Notes under the pieces: model-generated
The model's database searches: none
What the model was told of the DNA's origin: nothing
The model's input: only the letters and a program-made list of their open reading frames with translations
Part shown: piece by piece, positions 3,930 to 31,197 of the stretch
Layout of the letters: each line of letters begins with the position of its first letter
Numbering within the stretch: the stretch's first letter is position 1
Made by a program: the position numbers and the translations under genes
IMG/VR virus record: IMGVR_UViG_3300033981_001455
Span: 1 to 31,296 of that record
Source: a virus
Strand: one strand, 5' to 3'
DNA length: 31,296 nt

Positions 3930-4266
3930 GCACCTGATTGGCCGACGCTACGAGTACGGCGGCGACGACTGCATCCACCTCGTCATCGACGCCCTCAAAG
4001 CACTAGGCAAAAACCCGCCAGACGTTGCCGACGACTGGTACAAACTCAGCCCACGCGGCATCCTGCGTGAACTGGCGTTGTACTGCGACACCATAGACGT
4101 GCCCGCCTACGATGGTGACATCATTCTGTTCGGCGCCAAGCCACCTGAATTCGGAGTCCAATGGCAGAGTGGCATCCTATTCATAAACCCCTTAATTTCC
4201 GCAGTGGACTGGAAACCGGTGGGCAGTCTTATGATCCGCCGCTCCTACCGTATGAAATTGCGCTAA
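3922..4266 (+). CDS. NlpC/P60-like tail assembly protein (lambda K-like)
   Basis: I choose the GTG at 3922 (114 residues), not an upstream ATG at 3841, because the upstream part overlaps the previous gene and reads as noise. The N-terminal half has the NlpC/P60 pattern: R-Y-E-Y-G-G-D-D-C-I-H-L-V, where the Cys matches the catalytic cysteine, followed later by D-G-D-I-I-L-F-G. In lambda-like phages this protein works with L, I and J to build the tail tip, and may cut peptidoglycan during entry. Where a catalytic His is expected after the DGDIILFG strand, the sequence reads FGVQWQSGILFI with no histidine, so enzymatic activity is doubtful. Its end overlaps the J-like gene by 106 bases. Confidence 0.65.
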   Translation: MCEHLIGRRYEYGGDDCIHLVIDALKALGKNPPDVADDWYKLSPRGILRELALYCDTIDVPAYDGDIILFGAKPPEFGVQWQSGILFINPLISAVDWKPVGSLMIRRSYRMKLR

Positions 4267-7200
4267 TTGAAGCGCTTGGTTGCAGCGAATATGAGTATAA
4301 AACTTTTGTCCGTTATGCCGTACAGCGCACATATGTGCGCCCTGCTGAATACGAGCACATACCTGATATCCAGGCAATTCTTCCTGCTGTAGGTTTTGGC
4401 GCTGCTGCGGTATTTGGCGGGAGTGCAGCAGCCAAAAGTGCAGCAGCAATTATTGCAACTAACATTGCAATCGGCTTAGCGCTTACAGCAGTAAGTCTTT
4501 TGCTAGCACCAAAAGCTCCAGCTCTTGAAACACCCGCCAAAATTCGCGGCAAAAAGCTTGCTGATCAGATTGGCCCCACTCGTTTCAATCAAGCAACAAG
4601 CTTCGATAACGTCAGCAGCCTCGCCGAATACGGCCAGCCAATCCCCATCCCGTTTGGCAAGCGAGGCACTGGCGCTGACGGCGCTTTAACCGGCGGTCTG
4701 ATTCTTGCGCCTGCACTGGTGTGGAGCCGCATCTACAGCTACGGCAGTTACCAAGCGTTTGAAGGCATCTACGTCGCTGGCGAGTACGGCAGTGAGGCCC
4801 CCCAACTTGGCGGCATCCGCGTTGGCACCACAGCGCTGAACAGCCTCGGCAACCGCGACTATGCAGTGTTCTGGTCAAGCCAGTTAGGCGAAAATAGACC
4901 AAGGACAGCACGCTTAGTCGCTGGCACCCACATAGAAGGGGACGGCACCACCGGCACCGTTGGCCGCCAGATTTTTACCGCTCCAACCGAGGACGGACAG
5001 TTCAGCCAGGGATTTTCCATGGCTTACACCCCTCAAGCGGATACGTCGTTTGGAACAGCTGAGCCAATCCACAACGGCACGGCCTTCCGCTTCAACTGGG
5101 AAATCATCTCGGCGCCTTATGCAGCAACTGAAGGCCCGGACAATAAAGACGCACGCCTAGAAACTCAAGCCCGCCGCCGCAAGATCGCTGGTTCCGATGC
5201 TGATGTTCTGCATCGCTACGCCGATCAACCCAAAGAAGACATTCTACAGGTCGGTATGCCAGGTGTGGGACGTGCCTACTCCCGCCGCATGGGGTTTGTT
5301 GCACACAGCGGCACTAATGGCGGTGCTGACGTAGAAAATCGCACGATCGTATCAGTAGCCGAAAACGATACCTTAACATTCGAAATCAATGGTAATAACT
5401 GGAAAGACTTTAATCAAGATGATTTCAAGGACACAGAGGTTAATGTCAAAGACTTGAAGGCTTCTGCTGATTCTTGGAGAGCAAGGGCTTCTGATTTGTT
5501 GGCCATAGGCTCTAAATGGATTATCGGCGCTTCGGTGTGGGTTGTTGAAAGCAGAAGCCCCGCCACTTGGACACAGTTTCAAACCCAACGCATTACATTT
5601 AAATGCACCGCAATTACCGGCGTAGCAACTGTCGGGCTGGCTGGCAGAAGAACAGTAGAAGAACCACTCGGCGGCTACGAAGGTAGTGTCTTTAACCCCA
5701 ACAAACACTGCGGCGCAGCTTTCTTCAACATCTGCCGTCTGCATATGGCAAGCATCCGTCCCGTGCGACGCGATGCCCAAGTCATCGAAATTGGACTCCG
5801 TAGCCAAGTCTGGAACCGCGCCAACGGCCTGTGCAACTTCAACGCAATTCCTACGCCTTTCAAACTGCACCAACTCGATAAACAGGACATTACGCTCACA
5901 ACGCCTCGAATGGATAAGTACTTCGAGCGCACATCGTGCTTTTCTATTTGGGTACGCCCAGTTGAGGTTTATGGCCAAGCCCAGCAGCCTTGGCGCAGGA
6001 TGCCGCAAGTTTTCTGCGTTACTGGTAATGCCCCGGTCGATCAGTACAACTACATCCGTATTCGTCCTAAGCAAATTGGATACTACGAGTACCGATTTAT
6101 TCCGCGCACGGGATCGGATATTGCAATCAACAGCATAGATACAAATAGAGTTATCCGATTAAATGCGAATACTGGCAGCATCTTAGGAATAGACTTAGAC
6201 ACAGACTATGGCGGTTTTAGAGTCACAACTAACGGCGATGACACTATAACTATTGCTGACATTCGCTTGAACGACGAACTTGTAACAGATCCACAAGAAG
6301 GCAGCAGTGTAACCACCACTCAAACAACTATTCCATCAGCACTATCGCAGTACGACACCACATCCAGCAATGGCAGCGTACAACAGATTACTAATGCGTG
6401 GCTCACTGCTGTACTGGGCTATGCACGTGACAATGCGGGTAACGAAAACAGTGCTGACATAACAATCGACAAGCCCAACGTCGGGCAAATTGTGTTCACT
6501 GTCAAAGCTACGTCCGTAGCCGGCGTACTGGGCTCTACTATTGGAAATGTATACTTAGCTACAAACAAAGGAAGCACGTATATATGGAGCGGCATGTCTT
6601 TCACGGTAAAGTCCGCGAATGGAACATGGAATACATCGCACAAATTTACGGTGGTTGTAAATGTTGATAACGATTTTTCAAAAGTAGGCGGCTACTCGGA
6701 GGTCAACGTTGCCTTTGCTGTTACTGCTGTTCAAGCTGTATCGACAGTTAACAGCTCCACAGTCAGCAGCGCCGAGCGCGTATTTGAAGAAAACTCACAG
6801 GTCTCAGACTGCAGCCATTATCTGGAGCTGACCAAGTCCAACGAGAGCGGACCCGAGCATCAGATCGTTTACGTCAACGAGTGCATTTCCAACGAAACAC
6901 TCGCCGAGTACTACGGCATGTCCACACTGGGATTTACTGTTAAATCCAGCGGTCAACTTGGCGGCATCGGTCAAATACGCGCTTGGGTGCCAACCGGTAT
7001 CAGCGTTTACCGCTTGATTGAGCAGGACAACAGACCCAGCAACCTTTTCGCCGATCTTGTCTACTACCTCCTGACCAGCAAGAGCCAAGGTGTCGGCAAT
7101 GTTGTCCCTACAGAGCTGATCGACGTCGAATCACTCACCACAACCGCCCAGTACTTACGCGCCAACAAGATCTTCTTTGACGGCGTGGTGGAAGACAGCG

Positions 7201-15620: not shown

Positions 15621-15663
15621 CTGCCATTCTTGCTGGTGATCTTTACACATTCCAGCTAGGCAG
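15621..15663. terminator. weak hairpin at the convergence point
   Basis: CTGCC (15621-15625) can pair with GGCAG (15659-15663), and GCTGG (15632-15636) with CCAGC (15652-15656). It covers the 23-base gap between the HNH stop and the sigma stop and includes the end of the sigma gene. It could end transcription from both sides. The stems are short and there is no long U-tract. Confidence 0.25.
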
Positions 15664-16569
15664 ACCCTCCAGACGTTCCCGACCTTCTGTATTGTTGGCG
15701 CCAAGTGGGGTGCCTGCCAGCGGGTTGCCTATCAGCATACGAAGGCGGCTGATGCCGCGCCTTTGTATTTCGCACATGCGTGCACGTGACAGGCCCATGC
15801 GCTTTTCTAGGTCATTCCATGGCACTGGATTGCGACTGTTGCGTGCGTAGATGATTTCACGTGTGCGATCATCTAAATGTTCATCGCAGTAATCACGCAC
15901 CGTTTCAAGCTGCCAATCGTATTCAACGTCGTATTGTCTTTTATCGGCAATGATGTCAAGAATGTTAGATGATTCATCTTGCGCAGGCTTATCAAGGCTT
16001 GTGACTCGATACGACTGCTGCAATGTGTCAGATATCACCTTAGGGGTCACATCAAGCACTGCAGCAAGCTCCGCCATGGTCGCTGTGCGTCCATGCTCTT
16101 GTGCAAATGCTTGCGCTGTCTTGTTCAGCTTGATCAGCATTTCATGCACGCCAAGCGGCAGCCTGATGATTGGGTCGTATTGAATCAATGCACGCCCGAT
16201 GGATTGACGGATCCACCAGTAGGCGTAGGTGGAAAACTTGTAACCGCGGGTGTAGTCAAACAGCTCCACGGCGCGTGCAAGACCGATGTTGCCCTCTTGG
16301 ATCAGATCCAGCATGTCAAGCGTTTGCGTGTTGCGCCTGCTGTACTTGCGTGCAACATGCACTACAAGCTGCAGGTTGGATTGCATGAACTTTTGCCGCG
16401 CGCGCTCACCGCTGCGTAGTTCGCGGCGTTCTTGTGTCGTTAAAGGTCTTTCAAGATCCTTTAATTCTCTCCACTTTGCGACGCGGCGGCCAAGTTGTAT
16501 CTCTTGTTGCGGCGTGAGTAATGGATACCGCGCGATACTGTTTAAGTAGTCGCCAATAGCGTCAGACAT
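15643..16569 (-). CDS. sigma-70-family RNA polymerase sigma factor
   Basis: From the ATG at 16569 the product has 308 residues; an upstream in-frame start would add 17 residues unlike the family. Region 1.2 is at 4-30 (D-A-I-G-D-Y-L-N ... E-I-Q-L-G). Region 2 is at about 60-127, with the D-L-I-Q-E-G-N-I-G-L-A-R-A-V core helix that binds beta-prime and F-S-T-Y-A-Y-W-W-I-R-Q for -10 recognition. Region 3 is at about 135-210. Region 4 ends in an HTH (W-N-D-L-E-K-R-M-G-L-S-R-A-R-M-C-E-I-Q). This is the primary/group 2 type. It is the last gene of the leftward block, well placed to switch polymerase to late promoters. An origin from a host gene is likely. Confidence 0.92.
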   Translation of the reverse strand: MSDAIGDYLNSIARYPLLTPQQEIQLGRRVAKWRELKDLERPLTTQERRELRSGERARQKFMQSNLQLVVHVARKYSRRNTQTLDMLDLIQEGNIGLARAVELFDYTRGYKFSTYAYWWIRQSIGRALIQYDPIIRLPLGVHEMLIKLNKTAQAFAQEHGRTATMAELAAVLDVTPKVISDTLQQSYRVTSLDKPAQDESSNILDIIADKRQYDVEYDWQLETVRDYCDEHLDDRTREIIYARNSRNPVPWNDLEKRMGLSRARMCEIQRRGISRLRMLIGNPLAGTPLGANNTEGRERLEGLPSWNV

Positions 16570-16828
16570 GGAAAATCCGTTAGTGCATACAATGGAAGCA
16601 CAATTCCACGGCGCTGCCAATGCTGCGCAGCTACGTGCGTTACATGCTGCAGCAGATTGGGGCGGACTGCTGGAATATGCGCTGTTGATAGCCGAGCAAG
16701 AAGCAAGCCAGCGGTCTCAAATCCACTGGCTTGCGCAAGAAGCGTCGGCAGCGTTGCGGACTGGCCTAGAGCAGTGGCACCTAGATGCCGCTGAAGAACT
16801 GCTTCGAGGCCGTCGTCGTGAGATCTGA
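16568..16828 (+). CDS. small helical protein on the opposite strand
   Basis: An 86-residue rightward ORF fills the 211-base gap between the leftward sigma and dCTP deaminase genes. It overlaps the start of sigma by 2 bases and the end of the deaminase gene by 48. The sequence is protein-like (helical, with A-D-W-G-G-L-L-E-Y-A-L and H-W-L-A-Q-E-A-S), and the leftward frames here do not look coding. A second ATG at residue 9 is an alternative start. I do not recognise a domain. If expressed, its transcript would be antisense to the 5' leader of sigma, so it could matter for sigma control. Confidence 0.5.
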   Translation: MENPLVHTMEAQFHGAANAAQLRALHAAADWGGLLEYALLIAEQEASQRSQIHWLAQEASAALRTGLEQWHLDAAEELLRGRRREI

Positions 16829-24840: not shown

Positions 24841-24960
24841 TCAATGACTTTCGTAATTCGGTTCATCTGGCAAATAACAACGCCGCCACATTGAAAGCCA
24901 TCTGTGCATCATGTTGATCTTTGCTTCTGAGCAGTTTTGCGTCAACGATTGATTGCTCAC
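24841..24960 (-). CDS. 39-residue ORF between the two helicase genes
   Basis: A GTG start at 24960 overlaps the upstream stop (GTGA), and the TGA at 24841 lies just before the next ATG, so the ORF fills the gap exactly. The product ends with a compact basic-aromatic part (M-M-H-R-W-L-S-M-W-R-R-C-Y-L-P-D-E-P-N-Y). The N-terminal half is polar. An internal ATG pair would give 23 residues. Short, so the evidence is mainly the perfect fit. Confidence 0.4.
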   Translation of the reverse strand: MSNQSLTQNCSEAKINMMHRWLSMWRRCYLPDEPNYESH

Positions 24961-27215
24961 ACCAGCTCCCCCTGACGGTTGCTGGCCACCTCAACCAGGT
25001 TCTTGACCGCGCAGTTGAAATACGAAGGCTTCAGCTCAAAGCCGACAAATTGGCGCCCGGCTTGGATGCTGCAGTAACCCTCGCTGCCGATGCCGGCGAA
25101 TGGGCTGAGCACCACGTCGCCAGGGTTGCTCCATAGCTGTAGGCCGCGGCGGATCACCTCAAGTTGCAGCGGGCAGATGTGACGCTCATCCTCATTGGCG
25201 CGTGCGCTGCGGTATTGCAGCGTGTCGGATGGGTTGATGTCCATCCACACCGGGCTGGCGTAACGCTGCCAGATGTTGATCGAGTCCTTAATCGGGTCGC
25301 CGCTTTTGGCTGGCGGGTTCTCACCAGCAAACTCCGTGAACGGGCCAGCCACCGGCTCTGGGTTGTCGCCCAGCTTGCGCACGGTCACGAGGTAGTCAGG
25401 GATGCCCTGGCGGCTGAGTGCTGAATCCTTACGCACTTGCTTATGCAGCAGGCCGATTGCCTTGGTGCGCTGCATTGCGGTGACGGGATCCTTCCAGATG
25501 CACACCTCGCTATGAAAGACAAAACCAGCAGCCTGGAAGATGCGCAGCATATCGCCGCGGAAATCCTTCACACCGATGAAACCATCGCGTTCTTTGCTGC
25601 TGGGCAGGTTCATGCAGTGGAAGCTGATCAACCGGCCAGGCATCATCACGCGATGCAGCTCGCTGGCAAGGAATCCAAAGTGATCAAAGAACTCCTGCTC
25701 AGTGCGGCTGTTGCCCATATCGCGGTCGCTGTTGCTGTAGGTGTAGAGCGACGCAAACGGCGGGCTGAAAATGCTGTAGTGGATGGAGTTACTGTCGAGC
25801 TGCTTGATGCTCTCCACGCAATCGCCCATATACATATCCCATCCATCACCGGACTTGTGCTCAGTGATGTGCGGCGCCACTTGGCGTTGGATCTTTTTGA
25901 GTTGCTCCATTGTTTGTTGCTTCATGATTTCAACCATTGATTGAGCCATTTGGATGCTGTCCGCTTCCTTGCGGCGGATGTTGTCGATCACGCGGCCTTC
26001 TGCCACGTCGTAGATGATGTGAGCGTTGACGGGTTGCTCTTGGCCAAATCGCCAGCAGCGGCGGATGGCTTGATAGAACGCCTCGTAGCTGTGCGACAGA
26101 CCAACAAATGCGACGTTGTGGCACCGCTGAAAGTTGAGGCCAAAACCAAAGATGCTGGGCTTGCTGACCAGCACGCGGATCTTGCCATCTTGGAAATCGA
26201 TGGCGGCTTGACGCTTGTGGTCATCGCTGTCGCTGCCTGACACCTCAACCGCGCCATCAATGGCAGCTGTTAGCGCCTTGCTTTCATCATTCAGATCACA
26301 CCAGATCAACCACTGCTCGGTGTTGCTGTTAGCAAGTTTGGCGGCAGCGGCCACGCGGAGGGCGAGAGATGCCTTGCGCACTTTGCGTTGGTCATTGAGC
26401 GTACGGGCCTCCATGGCAAATAGCGCCATCTGGCCGTCGTCACCTGCAACCGCCTCGCGTGGTGCCTCAACCGTGCAGTCTTGGATCTGCAGTGCCGGCA
26501 GGATGAAGCTGCCATCGTCGTAGCCAAGGTCTGACGGCTTGCGGATGGTCACCGCCCAGCTGCAGACCCACTCCCAGAACTTGTCCCGCGCGTGACCCTT
26601 GAGCCGCCACTTCGCAGTGTCGCCGCCGTCATGCACAAAGAACATGGCCAGCATCTCAGTGCGAGTCATCACACCGATGAACTCGGCATGGTTGCCAAGC
26701 TCCATGTGGTCATTGGGTGCTGGTGTGGCTGAGCAGGCCAACCGGTAAGGCGTCTGCGCGAATGACTCGATGATCTGGTTGCGAATTTTGCCGGTGTATG
26801 CCTTGAGGATGCTGCTCTCATCGAGCACTACGCCTTGGAAGCTGCTCGGATCGAAGTGGCTCAGCTTCTCGTAGTTGGTAATCGTGATGCCGGGCTTGAC
26901 ATCGGCTTGCGTTGCAGCGAACGCGCATGGGATGCCGAACTTGCTGCCCTCTCGTACGGTTTGATGTGCAACCGCAAGCGGTGCCAGCACTAGCACATTG
27001 GCACCAGTGTGCTGATGCACCTGATGGGCCCACTCAAGCTGCATGGCGGTTTTACCCATGCCGCAGTCGGCCCAGATGCAGAACTTGCCAACGCGGCAAG
27101 CCATGGTCACGATGTCCCGCTGAAAGGGGAACAGCGGCGCTGTGAACTGCTGCGGGTCAAAGCCGGCAACAGGTGCTGCAGTGGATTTGGAAGCTAAGAA
27201 GTCTTGGTAGGTCAT
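24957..27215 (-). CDS. SNF2-like helicase fused to a DNA methyltransferase
   Basis: 752 residues from the ATG at 27215; the longer reading to 27620 runs through the divergent control region and an RHH gene. Residues 25-440 are an SF2/SNF2-type ATPase: Walker A C-G-M-G-K-T (51-56), L-D-E-S-S (131-135), S-A-T-P (162-165) and Q-A-I-R-R-C-W-R-F-G-Q (382-392). Residues 455-752 are an amino-methyltransferase of the permuted order: catalytic motif S-P-P-F (484-487) before the SAM motif S-P-F-A-G-I-G (704-710), then F-V-G-F-E-L-K-P. S-P-P-[YF] favours N4-cytosine, though N6-adenine is possible. It would modify phage DNA while translocating. No partner nuclease is seen. Confidence 0.88.
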   Translation of the reverse strand: MTYQDFLASKSTAAPVAGFDPQQFTAPLFPFQRDIVTMACRVGKFCIWADCGMGKTAMQLEWAHQVHQHTGANVLVLAPLAVAHQTVREGSKFGIPCAFAATQADVKPGITITNYEKLSHFDPSSFQGVVLDESSILKAYTGKIRNQIIESFAQTPYRLACSATPAPNDHMELGNHAEFIGVMTRTEMLAMFFVHDGGDTAKWRLKGHARDKFWEWVCSWAVTIRKPSDLGYDDGSFILPALQIQDCTVEAPREAVAGDDGQMALFAMEARTLNDQRKVRKASLALRVAAAAKLANSNTEQWLIWCDLNDESKALTAAIDGAVEVSGSDSDDHKRQAAIDFQDGKIRVLVSKPSIFGFGLNFQRCHNVAFVGLSHSYEAFYQAIRRCWRFGQEQPVNAHIIYDVAEGRVIDNIRRKEADSIQMAQSMVEIMKQQTMEQLKKIQRQVAPHITEHKSGDGWDMYMGDCVESIKQLDSNSIHYSIFSPPFASLYTYSNSDRDMGNSRTEQEFFDHFGFLASELHRVMMPGRLISFHCMNLPSSKERDGFIGVKDFRGDMLRIFQAAGFVFHSEVCIWKDPVTAMQRTKAIGLLHKQVRKDSALSRQGIPDYLVTVRKLGDNPEPVAGPFTEFAGENPPAKSGDPIKDSINIWQRYASPVWMDINPSDTLQYRSARANEDERHICPLQLEVIRRGLQLWSNPGDVVLSPFAGIGSEGYCSIQAGRQFVGFELKPSYFNCAVKNLVEVASNRQGELV

Positions 27216-27230
27216 GGCAGTGTGCAGCCA

Positions 27231-27266
27231 CTTGCAACCGTAGCAGTTGTTGCTACGCTTTGCAAG
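27231..27266. promoter_or_regulatory. 36-bp inverted repeat with overlapping divergent promoter motifs
   Basis: Left arm CTTGCAA-C-CGTAGCA (27231-27245), 5-base centre GTTGT, right arm TGCTACG-CT-TTGCAAG (27251-27266). Only the internal spacer differs. Because of the symmetry each strand has TTGCAA followed after 16-17 bases by TACG[CG]T, a weak -35/-10 pair in both directions. It lies between the leftward ATG (27215) and the RHH GTG (27283), so it is probably the operator for both units. Confidence 0.65.
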
Positions 27267-27282
27267 CCTGTAGTCGAAACCA

Positions 27283-27420
27283 GTGCGCCTTAGCCATCCA
27301 ACGCATATACGCCTGACTCCAGACCTATTGCGGCAACTGGATTCCTGGCGTGGTGATCGCATGAACCGCGCCACCGCCATTCGACTGCTGCTGGAGCAGG
27401 CGCTTAAGGAGTCCAAGTGA
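27283..27420 (+). CDS. ribbon-helix-helix DNA-binding protein
   Basis: A 45-residue protein from a GTG start. It has the Arc/CopG ribbon-helix-helix form: a short strand H-I-R-L-T-P, helix D-L-L-R-Q-L-D-S-W-R-G, then N-R-A-T-A-I-R-L-L-L-E-Q-A-L-K. This is the complete domain with nothing else, typical of small repressors that bind inverted repeats as dimers. Its gene begins 17 bases after the 36-bp palindrome and its TGA overlaps the GTG of the primase gene. The most direct reading is an autoregulator controlling both the leftward block and its own operon with the primase. Confidence 0.75.
   Translation: MRLSHPTHIRLTPDLLRQLDSWRGDRMNRATAIRLLLEQALKESK
27406..27411 (+). promoter_or_regulatory. 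strong ribosome binding site for the primase gene
   Basis: AAGGAG ends 5 bases before the GTG at 27417, inside the end of the RHH gene. It decides the GTG start of the primase and shows that the two genes are translated from one message. Confidence 0.7.
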
Positions 27421-29474
27421 ATCTGCGCGATGAGCTGAGCCGCCTGCCCGACGACTGGGGTTATGTCGCCGTGGATGGGCAAAAGCGCCCGTATCAGTCG
27501 GCGTGGCAAGACAACCCACTTAATAAGGATGCGCTGCTGGCCGAACTGAGCAGCGGTCGCGCACGTGCCATTGGTGTTTGCTGCGGCGTGCCCTCCGGTG
27601 GTCTGTTGTTTTTGGATCACGATGGCAAGTCAGCTAGCACGCTCTTGGCCGAGTGGGATCTGCCGCTGTCATCCCTGCCGCGCAGCTGGGTGGTCAAGTC
27701 AGGCCGCGATGGCCGGATGCAAATCATCTACCGCGTACCTGAGCAGTACTGGGATGCGATCGCCACGCGCAAATACAAGACCGGCGTCATTGATGACGAC
27801 GGCAAGGCCGAGCAAGTAGAGCTGCGCTGGAACGGCTGCCAGTCCGTCGTAGCCGGGGCACACCCACAAACCACCGGCTACTACTGGGTGCCAGGCCATG
27901 GGCCAGGCGACCGCGACATAGCAGAAGCGCCGATTGGATTGATTGAGCGGATGCTCAAGCCGCAGCCGCAGCCGGTACGCGCCGAGCTAGTCCAGATGCC
28001 TGACCCGCAGGGCGATGCAGATCGCGCACGGTCATACCTCGCCGCATTGGATGCCAACCGCGCTGATGACTACGACGACTGGCTTGCGGTTGGCATGTCG
28101 CTTCACAGCGTCGGCGATGACAGCCTGCTCGATCAATGGGAGCAGTGGTCGGCGCAGTCCGCTAAGCACAAACCCAGCGACTGCCAGCGCAAGTGGCGGA
28201 GCTTTAAGAAATCCGGCATCACGCTCGGCACCCTTGGCGACATGGCCAAGAAAGACGGATGGCGTAGCGCCAGCCCAGTACGGCGCGAGGTTGGTGGCCG
28301 CACCGCTAACCCGGAGCCTGCACGTGCGCCAGTAGGCGGCAAGCCAGAGAAGCTGGAGGCCGCTGAGCTGCTGGAGTACCTGCGTCGCAACGCCGGTGAC
28401 ATCAGGCTCAACATCTTTACCCAGCAGATCGAGGTCGATAACCAAGTGATCGAAGGCGTCGACCGCTATTACCTCAAGCTGGCAGAGCAGGGCTACAAGG
28501 TCGGCAAGGAGCTTGCCATCGACTGCTTGGTCCAAGTGGCAAGCGAGAAGCCATACGACCCGGTGCGCCTTTACCTAGAGCATTGCGCCGACCACGTTGC
28601 ACCGACCTACATCGACAGGCTGGCCACCGCCTACCTGCGGCCGTGTGATGCCACGCTGCCGGAACCGACCATCTATGACGAGATGCTCAAGCGCACGCTG
28701 ATCGGCGCTGTAGCGCGTGCCTTCAACCCTGGCTGCAAGCACGACACCGCCTGCGTATTGATGGGCGATCAAGGTGCCTACAAATCCAGCTTCTGGGGTT
28801 GCTTAGGTGGCCCGTTTTTCTCGGATGCACTCGGTGACATCTCAACCAAAGACGACGTGATGGTGCTCCATCGGTCGTGGATGATGGAATGGGCGGAGCT
28901 TGACCACATCACAGGTAGGCGTCATGCCGGACAGGTAAAAGCCTTTCTTTCGCAGGCTATTGATCTAATGCGTGTGCCCTATGGCAAGGAGGTTGAGTCA
29001 TTCCCAAGGCGTGGCATCATCGTTGGCACAACTAACAAAACCACTGGGTTTCTGGTGGATGAAACTGGCAACCGCCGCTTCTGGGTCATCCCGACCACTA
29101 AGACGCAGCAGGACCAGATTGATACCGCTTCGCTAATGCTTGAACGCGATGCGATTTGGTCCGCTGTTGTACATGCCTACAGGGCAGGTGAGACCAACCG
29201 GCTACCCGTTGAGATGGAAGTCAAGGTGACCGAAGAGAACGATAACTACGTGATTGACTCGCCATGGCGTAGTGCCATTGAGGAATACCTTGCCCGCAGG
29301 CGTTCTAGTGATGTGCTCACGATTGAGGACGTTCTTACTCACGGAATCAAAAAACCACTGGAGCGGCAGAACCGCTCGGATCAGATGCAGGTGGCTGCGA
29401 TTCTCAAGGATCTCGGGTTGGTCCGCAAACGAGAGGCGACAGGCAAGAGACGTTGGCACTACGCCCCGTCCTAA
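27417..29474 (+). CDS. primase-helicase: prim-pol domain plus VapE-type P-loop ATPase
   Basis: 685 residues. The N-terminal part (1-180) fits a bifunctional primase/polymerase (AEP) domain, with G-V-C-C-G-x-P-S-G-G-L-L-F-L-D-H-D-G (Asp67, Asp69 as metal ligands) and a later K-S-G-R-D-G-R-M-Q. A PriCT-type helical segment follows at about 205-285 (D-Y-D-D-W-L-A-V-G-M-S-L-H-S). Residues 410-640 are a VirE/VapE-like ATPase: Walker A G-D-Q-G-A-Y-K-S (450-457), W-M-M-E-W-A-E-L-D (488-496), G-T-T-N (537-540) and G-N-R-R-F-W (551-556) with arginine fingers. It should prime and unwind phage DNA. No DNA polymerase gene is in the window, so the host polymerase is probably used. Confidence 0.9.
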   Translation: MNLRDELSRLPDDWGYVAVDGQKRPYQSAWQDNPLNKDALLAELSSGRARAIGVCCGVPSGGLLFLDHDGKSASTLLAEWDLPLSSLPRSWVVKSGRDGRMQIIYRVPEQYWDAIATRKYKTGVIDDDGKAEQVELRWNGCQSVVAGAHPQTTGYYWVPGHGPGDRDIAEAPIGLIERMLKPQPQPVRAELVQMPDPQGDADRARSYLAALDANRADDYDDWLAVGMSLHSVGDDSLLDQWEQWSAQSAKHKPSDCQRKWRSFKKSGITLGTLGDMAKKDGWRSASPVRREVGGRTANPEPARAPVGGKPEKLEAAELLEYLRRNAGDIRLNIFTQQIEVDNQVIEGVDRYYLKLAEQGYKVGKELAIDCLVQVASEKPYDPVRLYLEHCADHVAPTYIDRLATAYLRPCDATLPEPTIYDEMLKRTLIGAVARAFNPGCKHDTACVLMGDQGAYKSSFWGCLGGPFFSDALGDISTKDDVMVLHRSWMMEWAELDHITGRRHAGQVKAFLSQAIDLMRVPYGKEVESFPRRGIIVGTTNKTTGFLVDETGNRRFWVIPTTKTQQDQIDTASLMLERDAIWSAVVHAYRAGETNRLPVEMEVKVTEENDNYVIDSPWRSAIEEYLARRRSSDVLTIEDVLTHGIKKPLERQNRSDQMQVAAILKDLGLVRKREATGKRRWHYAPS

Positions 29475-29727: not shown

Positions 29728-30009
29728 ATGCCCGAAATCAAGATCAATGTCACCGCTGACGACCTGGCGCGGTTGAACGCTGAAGCAGCAGCACATGGAA
29801 TGCCGCGTGCGCATCTGATCCGGCAGCGTGCCTTGAGCGGTGGGGTTGTTGCAGGATTGACCACGGCGGCTTACCATGCTCTGGTGGCGGACGCCTGCGC
29901 CTTCATGCGTGGTGATCTGAACCGCCGACACGTTGAAACTCTCGTTGCATATGTCATCGCTCATTCACATTCCAGCCAAGCATCAACCGGTGATCAATCG
30001 GCTGCATGA
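29728..30009 (+). CDS. second ribbon-helix-helix-like protein
   Basis: 93 residues. The first 35 (E-I-K-I-N-V-T-A-D-D-L-A-R-L-N-A-E-A-A-A-H-G-M-P-R-A-H-L-I-R-Q-R-A-L) fit an RHH strand-helix-helix with a basic end. The remainder is helical, with H-V-E-T-L-V-A-Y-V-I-A-H-S-H. It lies directly after the iteron-like region and before the clamp gene, so it is the best candidate to bind those repeats. It could be a replication or partition regulator. The ATG at 29728 is the only sensible start. Confidence 0.65.
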   Translation: MPEIKINVTADDLARLNAEAAAHGMPRAHLIRQRALSGGVVAGLTTAAYHALVADACAFMRGDLNRRHVETLVAYVIAHSHSSQASTGDQSAA

Positions 30010-30013
30010 CACC

Positions 30014-30160
30014 ATGACCCAAGCAGTGGCGTACGCCGCAGCCATTGCCGACAACGCCATTGATGACGGCGTACCGCTACCCATGGAACTTGTGGATAGC
30101 TTCGCCGCTGATTACGAACGCATCATCACCAGCCTCGTCACTGCCGCCACCGTCAAATGA
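30014..30160 (+). CDS. small helical protein before the clamp gene
   Basis: 48 residues from the ATG at 30014, four bases after the RHH stop; a TTG at 29933 would overlap that gene. It is an Ala-rich helix (Q-A-V-A-Y-A-A-A-I-A-D-N-A-I-D-D-G) then P-L-P-M-E-L-V-D-S-F-A-A-D-Y-E-R-I-I-T-S-L-V. The stop overlaps the clamp ATG (ATGA). Unknown function. Confidence 0.5.
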   Translation: MTQAVAYAAAIADNAIDDGVPLPMELVDSFAADYERIITSLVTAATVK

Positions 30161-31197
30161 AAGCCGTCACCTGCCAAGCAGATCTTGATCACGCGCTGCG
30201 CACCATCGCGCCAGCCGTTGGCCATCGCAGCAGCCATCCGATCCTTGATTGCTGCCTGATCCAAGCCGCTGGTGGCGTCATGACCATCACCGGCTTCAAC
30301 CTTGACCTCGGCATCACCGTCACCATCCCAGCCGCAGTGGACACCGATGGCGCCGTAGCGCTGCCGTATCGGCTGCTGGCTGGCCTTGTGAGCCGCTTTG
30401 ACGGCGATGAGGCTCTGACCCTCGCAGATGGCGCTCTGACCGCCTCTGCGGGCTCATACGGCCTTGCAGCGGCTGATGCGGCGGATTACCCCGCGCTGCC
30501 GGTTGTGGACGCCGCTACGAGCGAGCTGCACCTATCCGCTGGTATCCGCGCCTGCATGGCAGCTGCCAGCACCGACGCCAGCAAGCAAATGCTCCAAGGC
30601 ATCCACCTCGGCAGTGGCCACATGGAGGCCACTGACGGGCACCGCCTCATGCGTTACGCCATTGACCTGCCAGATGGACTTGACCTCGTGCTGCCCGCCA
30701 GCACCATGCGCCTGCTGCAAGATCGCGTGGTCACCATTGCCGTTGCCAAAGGGCAAGCCGTGATCGACGCAGGTGACGGCATCACCATCTACAGCCGCAT
30801 CATGGACGGCACTTACCCAGACGTGGCCAAGCTGGTACCCGCTGAGTTCAAAAGCACCATCACCGCCGATCGTCGCCGACTGACCCGCGCCTTGGAGCGT
30901 GTCGCCATCATTGCCGATGCGCACAACTCCATTGTCAAGCTCACCGCCAGCGCCGGTGGACTTGCGATCACCGCTGAAGCTGATGCCAACAATGGCCGCG
31001 AGCTGTTAGCAGTGGAAGGCACCGCCAATGGCGCATGGGCGTTCAACGTCCACTACCTGCTAGACGGCATCAAGGCGTTCAAGCCCGCAGAAGCCATCAC
31101 GCTGCACGCCAATACGGCAACCACACCCGTCGTGTTGACACCTAGTGGCGTGGACGGTGTAACTTATCTAGTAATGCCTGTGCAAGTCCGCAACTAA
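30157..31197 (+). CDS. dnaN: DNA polymerase sliding clamp (DnaN-like)
   Basis: 346 residues, slightly shorter than host beta clamps. It has the three-domain pattern with clamp landmarks: G-F-N-L-D-L-G near residue 46, L-Q-G-I-H-L and A-T-D-G-H-R-L-M-R-Y in the middle, the interdomain G-T-Y-P-D-V, and the C-terminal Y-L-V-M-P-V-Q-V-R that forms the edge of the partner-binding pocket. It would encircle DNA and hold the host's DNA polymerase III on phage DNA, since no phage polymerase is seen. It is encoded with the RHH and small helical genes, coupled by ATGA. Confidence 0.9.
   Translation: MKAVTCQADLDHALRTIAPAVGHRSSHPILDCCLIQAAGGVMTITGFNLDLGITVTIPAAVDTDGAVALPYRLLAGLVSRFDGDEALTLADGALTASAGSYGLAAADAADYPALPVVDAATSELHLSAGIRACMAAASTDASKQMLQGIHLGSGHMEATDGHRLMRYAIDLPDGLDLVLPASTMRLLQDRVVTIAVAKGQAVIDAGDGITIYSRIMDGTYPDVAKLVPAEFKSTITADRRRLTRALERVAIIADAHNSIVKLTASAGGLAITAEADANNGRELLAVEGTANGAWAFNVHYLLDGIKAFKPAEAITLHANTATTPVVLTPSGVDGVTYLVMPVQVRN

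Follow-up and report, generated by a model that had tools for sequence, protein, structure and literature searches.

A palindrome and a 45-residue RHH protein as a putative CopG-style autorepressed divergent control region in a probable picocyanobacterial phage

An imperfect palindrome of 36 bp at positions 27231-27266 of a 31,296-base, incomplete virus record (called here the window) is very probably the operator of a 45-residue RHH protein and, at the same time, the seat of two overlapping divergent promoters under CopG-style autorepression. The sequence-only reading had proposed this region as a candidate for the main transcription switch of the phage. The part of that claim which concerns a divergent control region with the RHH protein as its cognate regulator is strongly supported: the site is conserved, one of its bases matches one protein residue, it moves together with the operon head, it is present once per genome, and it stands at the only divergence point of a genome. 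For the part which implies an on/off decision no such support was obtained. One repressor and one operator common to both promoters would lead to joint shut-off by negative feedback; a bistable toggle is unlikely because a single repressor would cover both promoters.

The palindrome is non-coding, occupies the left end of the interval 27231-27420 named in the earlier reading, and lies between the ATG of a leftward gene (27215) and the GTG of the rightward RHH gene (27283), with 17 bp separating its end from the RHH gene start; the open reading frames agree with the earlier placement of the repeat between a leftward block and a rightward 45-residue RHH gene. The first gene of the left arm encodes a helicase-DNA methyltransferase fusion (24957..27215, minus strand) and matches its counterpart in Synechococcus phage S-CBS3 at 80% DNA identity, which makes a picocyanobacterium the probable host. 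The last gene of the left arm encodes an RNA polymerase sigma factor (15643..16620, minus strand), which was present in all 19 relatives searched. On the plus strand, the RHH gene (27283..27420) is followed by a gene for a Prim-Pol/PriCT-2/VapE-like replicative primase-helicase (27417..29474), whose GTG at 27417 shares bases with the RHH stop codon, an arrangement suggestive of translational coupling, and, further downstream in the right arm, by a gene for a DNA polymerase III beta-clamp homologue (30157..31197). In a relative of 43,957 bases (G003), which is probably complete because its ends overlap by at least 100 bases, the palindrome site is the sole point where two gene arms diverge. The right arm of this genome comprises RHH, primase, clamp, terminase, portal, head, tail, and lysis genes, and the left arm comprises helicases, an exonuclease, RecT, and, in the last position, the sigma factor (left-arm gene names taken from the window). 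In another relative (G012; 42,134 bases), the sigma gene is divided between both contig ends; this genome must therefore be either circular or permuted, and at about 42 kb it is probably complete.

The sequence of 27231-27266 is CTTGCAACCGTAGCAGTTGTTGCTACGCTTTGCAAG, which follows the strandless pattern TTGC-4 nt-GTAGC-N7-GCTAC-5 nt-GCAAG. It consists of two pairs of 7-bp arms (CTTGCAA/TTGCAAG and CGTAGCA/TGCTACG) with a small asymmetric bulge between them and a 5-nt loop at the centre. An inverted-repeat search of the window using a 15-position arm score ranked the palindrome first with 14/15, a score reached by none of 100 dinucleotide-model resamplings, and the repeat proposed earlier is thus real. 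The inner half-sites GTAGC-N7-GCTAC occupy 27240..27256 (no strand), and their outermost bases, 27240 and 27256, are those that match residue 10 of the RHH protein. A rightward promoter was predicted at 27232..27259 (plus strand), with the -35 hexamer TTGCAA at 27232-27237, a 16-bp spacer, the -10 hexamer TACGCT at 27254-27259, and a start near 27266. The predicted leftward promoter, at 27237..27265 (minus strand), has TTGCAA at 27265-27260, a 17-bp spacer, TACGGT at 27242-27237, and a start near 27230. The hexamers thus imply the same two start positions as the earlier reading, and its description of the promoters as weak also fits, with 7/12 matches in each direction and no promoter found in a strict sigma-70 scan of the window DNA. 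Since both predicted promoters occupy the same 34 bp, they would be mutually exclusive, and a protein bound at the half-sites would block both.

In relatives belonging to several RHH classes, TTGACA was found at the predicted -35 positions, and four of them (L113, L137, L163, and L035) have it on both strands. The rightward -10 element of relatives is TACACT, TACAGT, or TACAAT, and 54 of the 55 distinct sites retrieved by homology retain its leading TA and final T; the remaining one (L078) is a misplaced call. As the conserved hexamers and the half-sites overlap, conservation of the palindrome may partly reflect the promoter rather than the operator. The palindrome also folds as RNA (-19.3 kcal/mol, z -2.9), as would be expected if it were a leader hairpin or terminator that had nothing to do with the RHH gene; however, the T run of a terminator is absent, the repeat lies upstream of two diverging genes and not between converging ones, and its half-sites vary with the DNA-contacting residue, beyond mere base pairing, which makes this explanation very improbable.

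The RHH gene starts with GTG, and its product contains the strand residues T7-H8-I9-R10-L11 and helices at 13-23 and 29-44. In most relatives, the start column of the ORF is ATG or GTG, and the Leu class begins three codons later. Membership in the ribbon-helix-helix (RHH; MetJ/Arc) superfamily was recognized through a sequence-profile match of the ORF to PHROG 4738 (phrog_4738, "transcriptional repressor", E 6.5e-8). The Pfam RHH_1 model gave 12.8 bits, under its cut-off of 20.5 bits, and a profile search of PDB, Pfam, and NCBIfam was uninformative, the protein being so short. The AlphaFold2 model of the monomer (pLDDT 83) has the two helices expected of an RHH protein and an unpaired strand, as expected for one chain; a Foldseek comparison of this model with PDB returned no RHH structure among the matches. 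From an alignment to CopG, the DNA-facing strand residues are presumably H8 and R10. The RHH fold and an autoregulated palindrome are common to toxin-antitoxin and partition systems, and the protein might accordingly be a type II antitoxin or a ParG/omega-type partition protein. This is extremely improbable, given that the next gene encodes a primase and not a toxin, and that the ParA-type ATPase PF13614 is absent in 19 of 19 genomes. A motif scan additionally revealed a second, unrelated RHH-like ORF in five loci (L166, L204, L205, L219, and L238), with the strand EIKVRFT and the helix ITRSELVRSRALV, which we take to resemble relaxosome/MobC-type RHH proteins.

The association between the site and the RHH gene was evaluated in both directions. 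When viral contigs were scanned with an operator pattern that allowed any specificity bases and a spacer of 5-9, 96 stretches matched, and the spacer was 7 bp in 162 of 162 hits across all sequence fetched. The RHH ORF comes right after the operator in the same orientation in 74 of 76 unique operator contexts, and the other two end at a contig edge. Starting from the RHH gene, 134 of 143 distinct contexts carry a site immediately upstream at a score of at least 15 of 21, a level to be compared with random 110-bp pieces of the window, which seldom score above 13. The repeat is therefore conserved in relatives, a point which the sequence-only reading had offered as a check. Of the nine contexts below 15, four belong to the IPLRL/IPIRL strand class and have a diverged site, L154 lacks a convincing one, and the other four (L081, L373, L375, and L381) have a left-hand gene that is co-directional in the operon. 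One of the latter is truncated on the left (L381), and the palindrome site was not found in another (L375). In L081 and L373/L374, the helicase gene has joined the RHH operon in the same direction, and the palindrome lies 2.3-2.4 kb away from the RHH gene, at the operon head; the site therefore tracks the divergent promoter region and not the RHH start codon. In helicase relatives without an adjacent RHH gene, the site was absent.

L081 and L373/L374 also bear on whether the palindrome could be a replication origin or a primase-loading site, with the RHH protein as an origin-binding accessory. The primase-helicase and clamp genes adjoin the site, and RHH proteins beside rep genes are common in plasmids. 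Against this stand the relocated palindromes, which lie away from the primase, the constant position of the site at a divergent gene junction with promoter hexamers at fixed spacing, and the absence of iterons and of a second copy, so that an origin function is improbable. Allowing up to two mismatches, the pattern occurred in exactly one copy in 18 of 29 longer relatives, and the reversed control pattern gave zero matches in these genomes. A regulon-wide repressor was rejected, since the window has one full site, with the next best scoring 14/21, the same as shuffled sequence, and there is one site per relative.

Another conserved imperfect palindrome (TAGCAGTTGCGGCAAGCTGCGCTA type) was observed between the exonuclease and helicase genes at 4934-4962 of L110, as well as in L116, L128, L129, L134, L135, L149, L153, L155, and L157; these loci are helicase relatives without an adjacent RHH gene. 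The only match of the operator in a bacterial genome was found at 5958-5992 of a betaproteobacterial MAG contig (L258), which has the same operator and RHH gene. It is probably a phage (cyanophage) contig binned into the MAG and is uninformative on the host.

Residue 10 of the RHH protein is Arg, Leu, or Gln in relatives and corresponds to the base in the right arm of the site: Arg with C in 88 of 88 cases, Leu with A in 24 of 25, and Gln with G in 27 of 27. In the left arm, the base is G for Arg (87/88), T or A for Leu, and mostly C or T for Gln, giving half-sites GTAGC with Arg, TTAGC with Leu, and mostly C/T at the outer base with Gln. The single Arg exception in the left arm (L373) is a false site, the real one being at the operon head. 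When only loci retrieved through helicase or primase homology were counted, the residue and base matched in 44/44, 12/12, and 12/12 cases. The RHH superfamily trait that strand residues set base specificity was seen here by covariation only (140 contexts, S-H1 included). Only about three changes of residue class fall on the RHH protein tree; the match consequently draws on few protein-level events together with the S-H1 and L264 chimeras. The RHH ORF of cultured phage S-H1 joins an Arg-type strand (PTPIRLT) to Leu/Gln-type helices (RRRVAGLSRSAVIRLLVEEAM), and its operator, CTTGCCCACCGTAGCCGCAGCGGCTACAGTAAGCAAG, is Arg-type. Among the sequences compared, this chimera is the best independent check of the residue/base match. 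In L113, L137, L163, and similar loci of the IPLRL strand class, Ile replaces Thr at strand position 7, and the inner half-sites are GTAGA(C)/GTATAC or GTATC/GATAC, not GTAGC/GCTAC. Strand position 7 is possibly a second specificity position.

A comparison of the window with L012 showed that the region 27231-27416, containing the site and the RHH gene, is 30-75% identical, whereas identity is 98-100% in 27101-27230 and 94-98% in the primase gene from 27450 onward. On a primase tree of 72 loci, the RHH/operator class changes at least 22 times, hardly below the 24.4 changes for shuffled labels. The site base changes along with the protein in 12 of 12 independent, well-supported switches (p = 0.0005), a linkage that is expected from joint transfer alone because both lie within about 190 bp; the functional argument for pairing of the protein and the site is the residue/base match and not the linkage of the switches. 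Related phages thus appear to exchange the site and the protein as one matched unit of at least three specificities.

Exchange of this kind, with a diverged cassette between nearly identical flanks, frequent class changes, and joint switching of protein and site, could also mean that the RHH protein serves as a superinfection (or prophage/episome) repressor that silences the lytic divergent promoters, with its specificity classes defining immunity groups. On the other hand, a tyrosine integrase was found in one of 29 relatives, a resolvase in none of 29, and ParA in none of 19, and therefore most of these phages have no visible route to lysogeny. A second, antagonistic regulator was not found beside the site, where the left neighbour is the helicase-methylase gene and there is one regulator gene only. 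With this balance, a superinfection repressor is possible and rather unlikely. A lysis-lysogeny switch of the lambda/P22 type was rejected on the same integrase and resolvase counts in relatives, the window itself being incomplete. Similarly tentative is a one-protein immunity cassette of about 190 bp without lysogeny functions. Selection would keep three or more RHH/operator specificities circulating, determined for the most part by a single strand residue and passed between phages whose flanking genes are nearly identical. Its advantage might be, for example, that a phage evades the repressor of a relative that co-infects or already resides in the cell.

Several known systems resemble the autorepressed control region proposed here. 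CopG has 45 residues, as does the RHH protein of the window. In the CopG-RepB system of plasmid pMV158/pLS1, as in the window, a tiny RHH protein, an autorepressor in the plasmid and a putative one here, is encoded first in an operon with an essential replication gene. In the window and in relatives, the small RHH gene immediately precedes the replication gene and shares an operon with it, and the operator overlaps the predicted promoter hexamers, as judged from sequence. CopG is the auto-repressor of the copG-repB operon, which has the single promoter Pcr (PMC5717011), whereas the putative operator described here would span a divergent promoter as well, the replication gene encodes a phage Prim-Pol/VapE primase, the RHH protein belongs to another sequence family, and three natural specificity classes are swapped as cassettes. 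No sequence kinship to CopG was detected, as the profile search matched no CopG chain in PDB and the Pfam copG-family model remained under its cut-off. By analogy, the module may work like CopG-RepB of pMV158; membership in that system is not claimed.

Arc and Mnt of phage P22 are likewise small RHH phage repressors acting on a divergent control region, and a half-site spacing of about one helical turn would accommodate dimers that bind in pairs. P22 differs in having two regulators and a separate immunity locus, in contrast to one RHH protein and one shared operator heading the genome, and no sequence match of the RHH protein to Arc/Mnt was found. In lambdoid immunity regions, a repressor and its cognate operator are swapped as a module between otherwise similar phages. 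The present module differs from lambdoid heteroimmunity in its size (about 190 bp), its single RHH protein of 45-60 aa, the lack of an antagonist, and the lack, in most genomes, of an integrase.

A further likeness is found in Synechococcus phage S-H1 (L263, MK105819.1), which has the same palindrome (about 3950-3985) and an unannotated RHH gene of about 50 aa (4001-4150) at the same divergent junction, followed by a gene annotated only as hypothetical and then by the beta-clamp gene. S-CBS3 and S-LBS1 also have RHH-like ORFs at their divergent junctions, and both phages are without this palindrome sequence. These are short "hypothetical" ORFs resembling distant RHH proteins, gp44 of S-CBS3 (L002, 29867-30025) and A51 of S-LBS1 (L003, 31899-32078); a different imperfect palindrome was noted upstream of gp44 (29820-29845). 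The literature search yielded no paper on an RHH regulator in cyanobacterial siphophages and none describing the RHH-like proteins of S-H1, S-CBS3, and S-LBS1 as regulators, and a repressor is unmentioned in the S-LBS1 genome paper (PMC6157547).

In the proposed mechanism, the palindrome would combine the RHH operator with two face-to-face, fully overlapping sigma-70-type promoters. Just after infection, RHH protein would be absent, and both promoters could fire, never simultaneously on one molecule. The leftward promoter would supply the helicases, the recombination genes, and the phage sigma factor, and the rightward promoter would supply RHH, the primase, and the beta-clamp. The RHH protein made from the rightward transcript would then bind the GTAGC/GCTAC half-sites and cover both promoters, probably with a dimer on each arm and the two dimers roughly one turn apart on the same DNA face, with strand residue 10 (Arg here) reading the outer base of each half-site. 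Both early transcripts would thereby be shut off or held at a set level, and the phage sigma factor, encoded at the far end of the left arm, would probably take over late control. We infer binding, start sites, repression, and timing in this scheme from the anatomy, conservation, residue/base match, relocation, and exchange observed in the sequences.

Regulation in cyanobacterial siphophages is almost undescribed. If the proposed control region is real, about 190 bp, which can be reconstituted in vitro, govern the early programme of the whole group. The three specificity classes found in nature would constitute a protein-DNA recognition code, with a predicted swap of Arg/Leu/Gln at residue 10 against GTAGC/TTAGC/CTAGC, and the idea is testable in an isolate, since cultured S-H1 carries the same unannotated module. 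The swapping of cassettes also raises the question of whether immunity groups exist among phages that mostly lack integrases.
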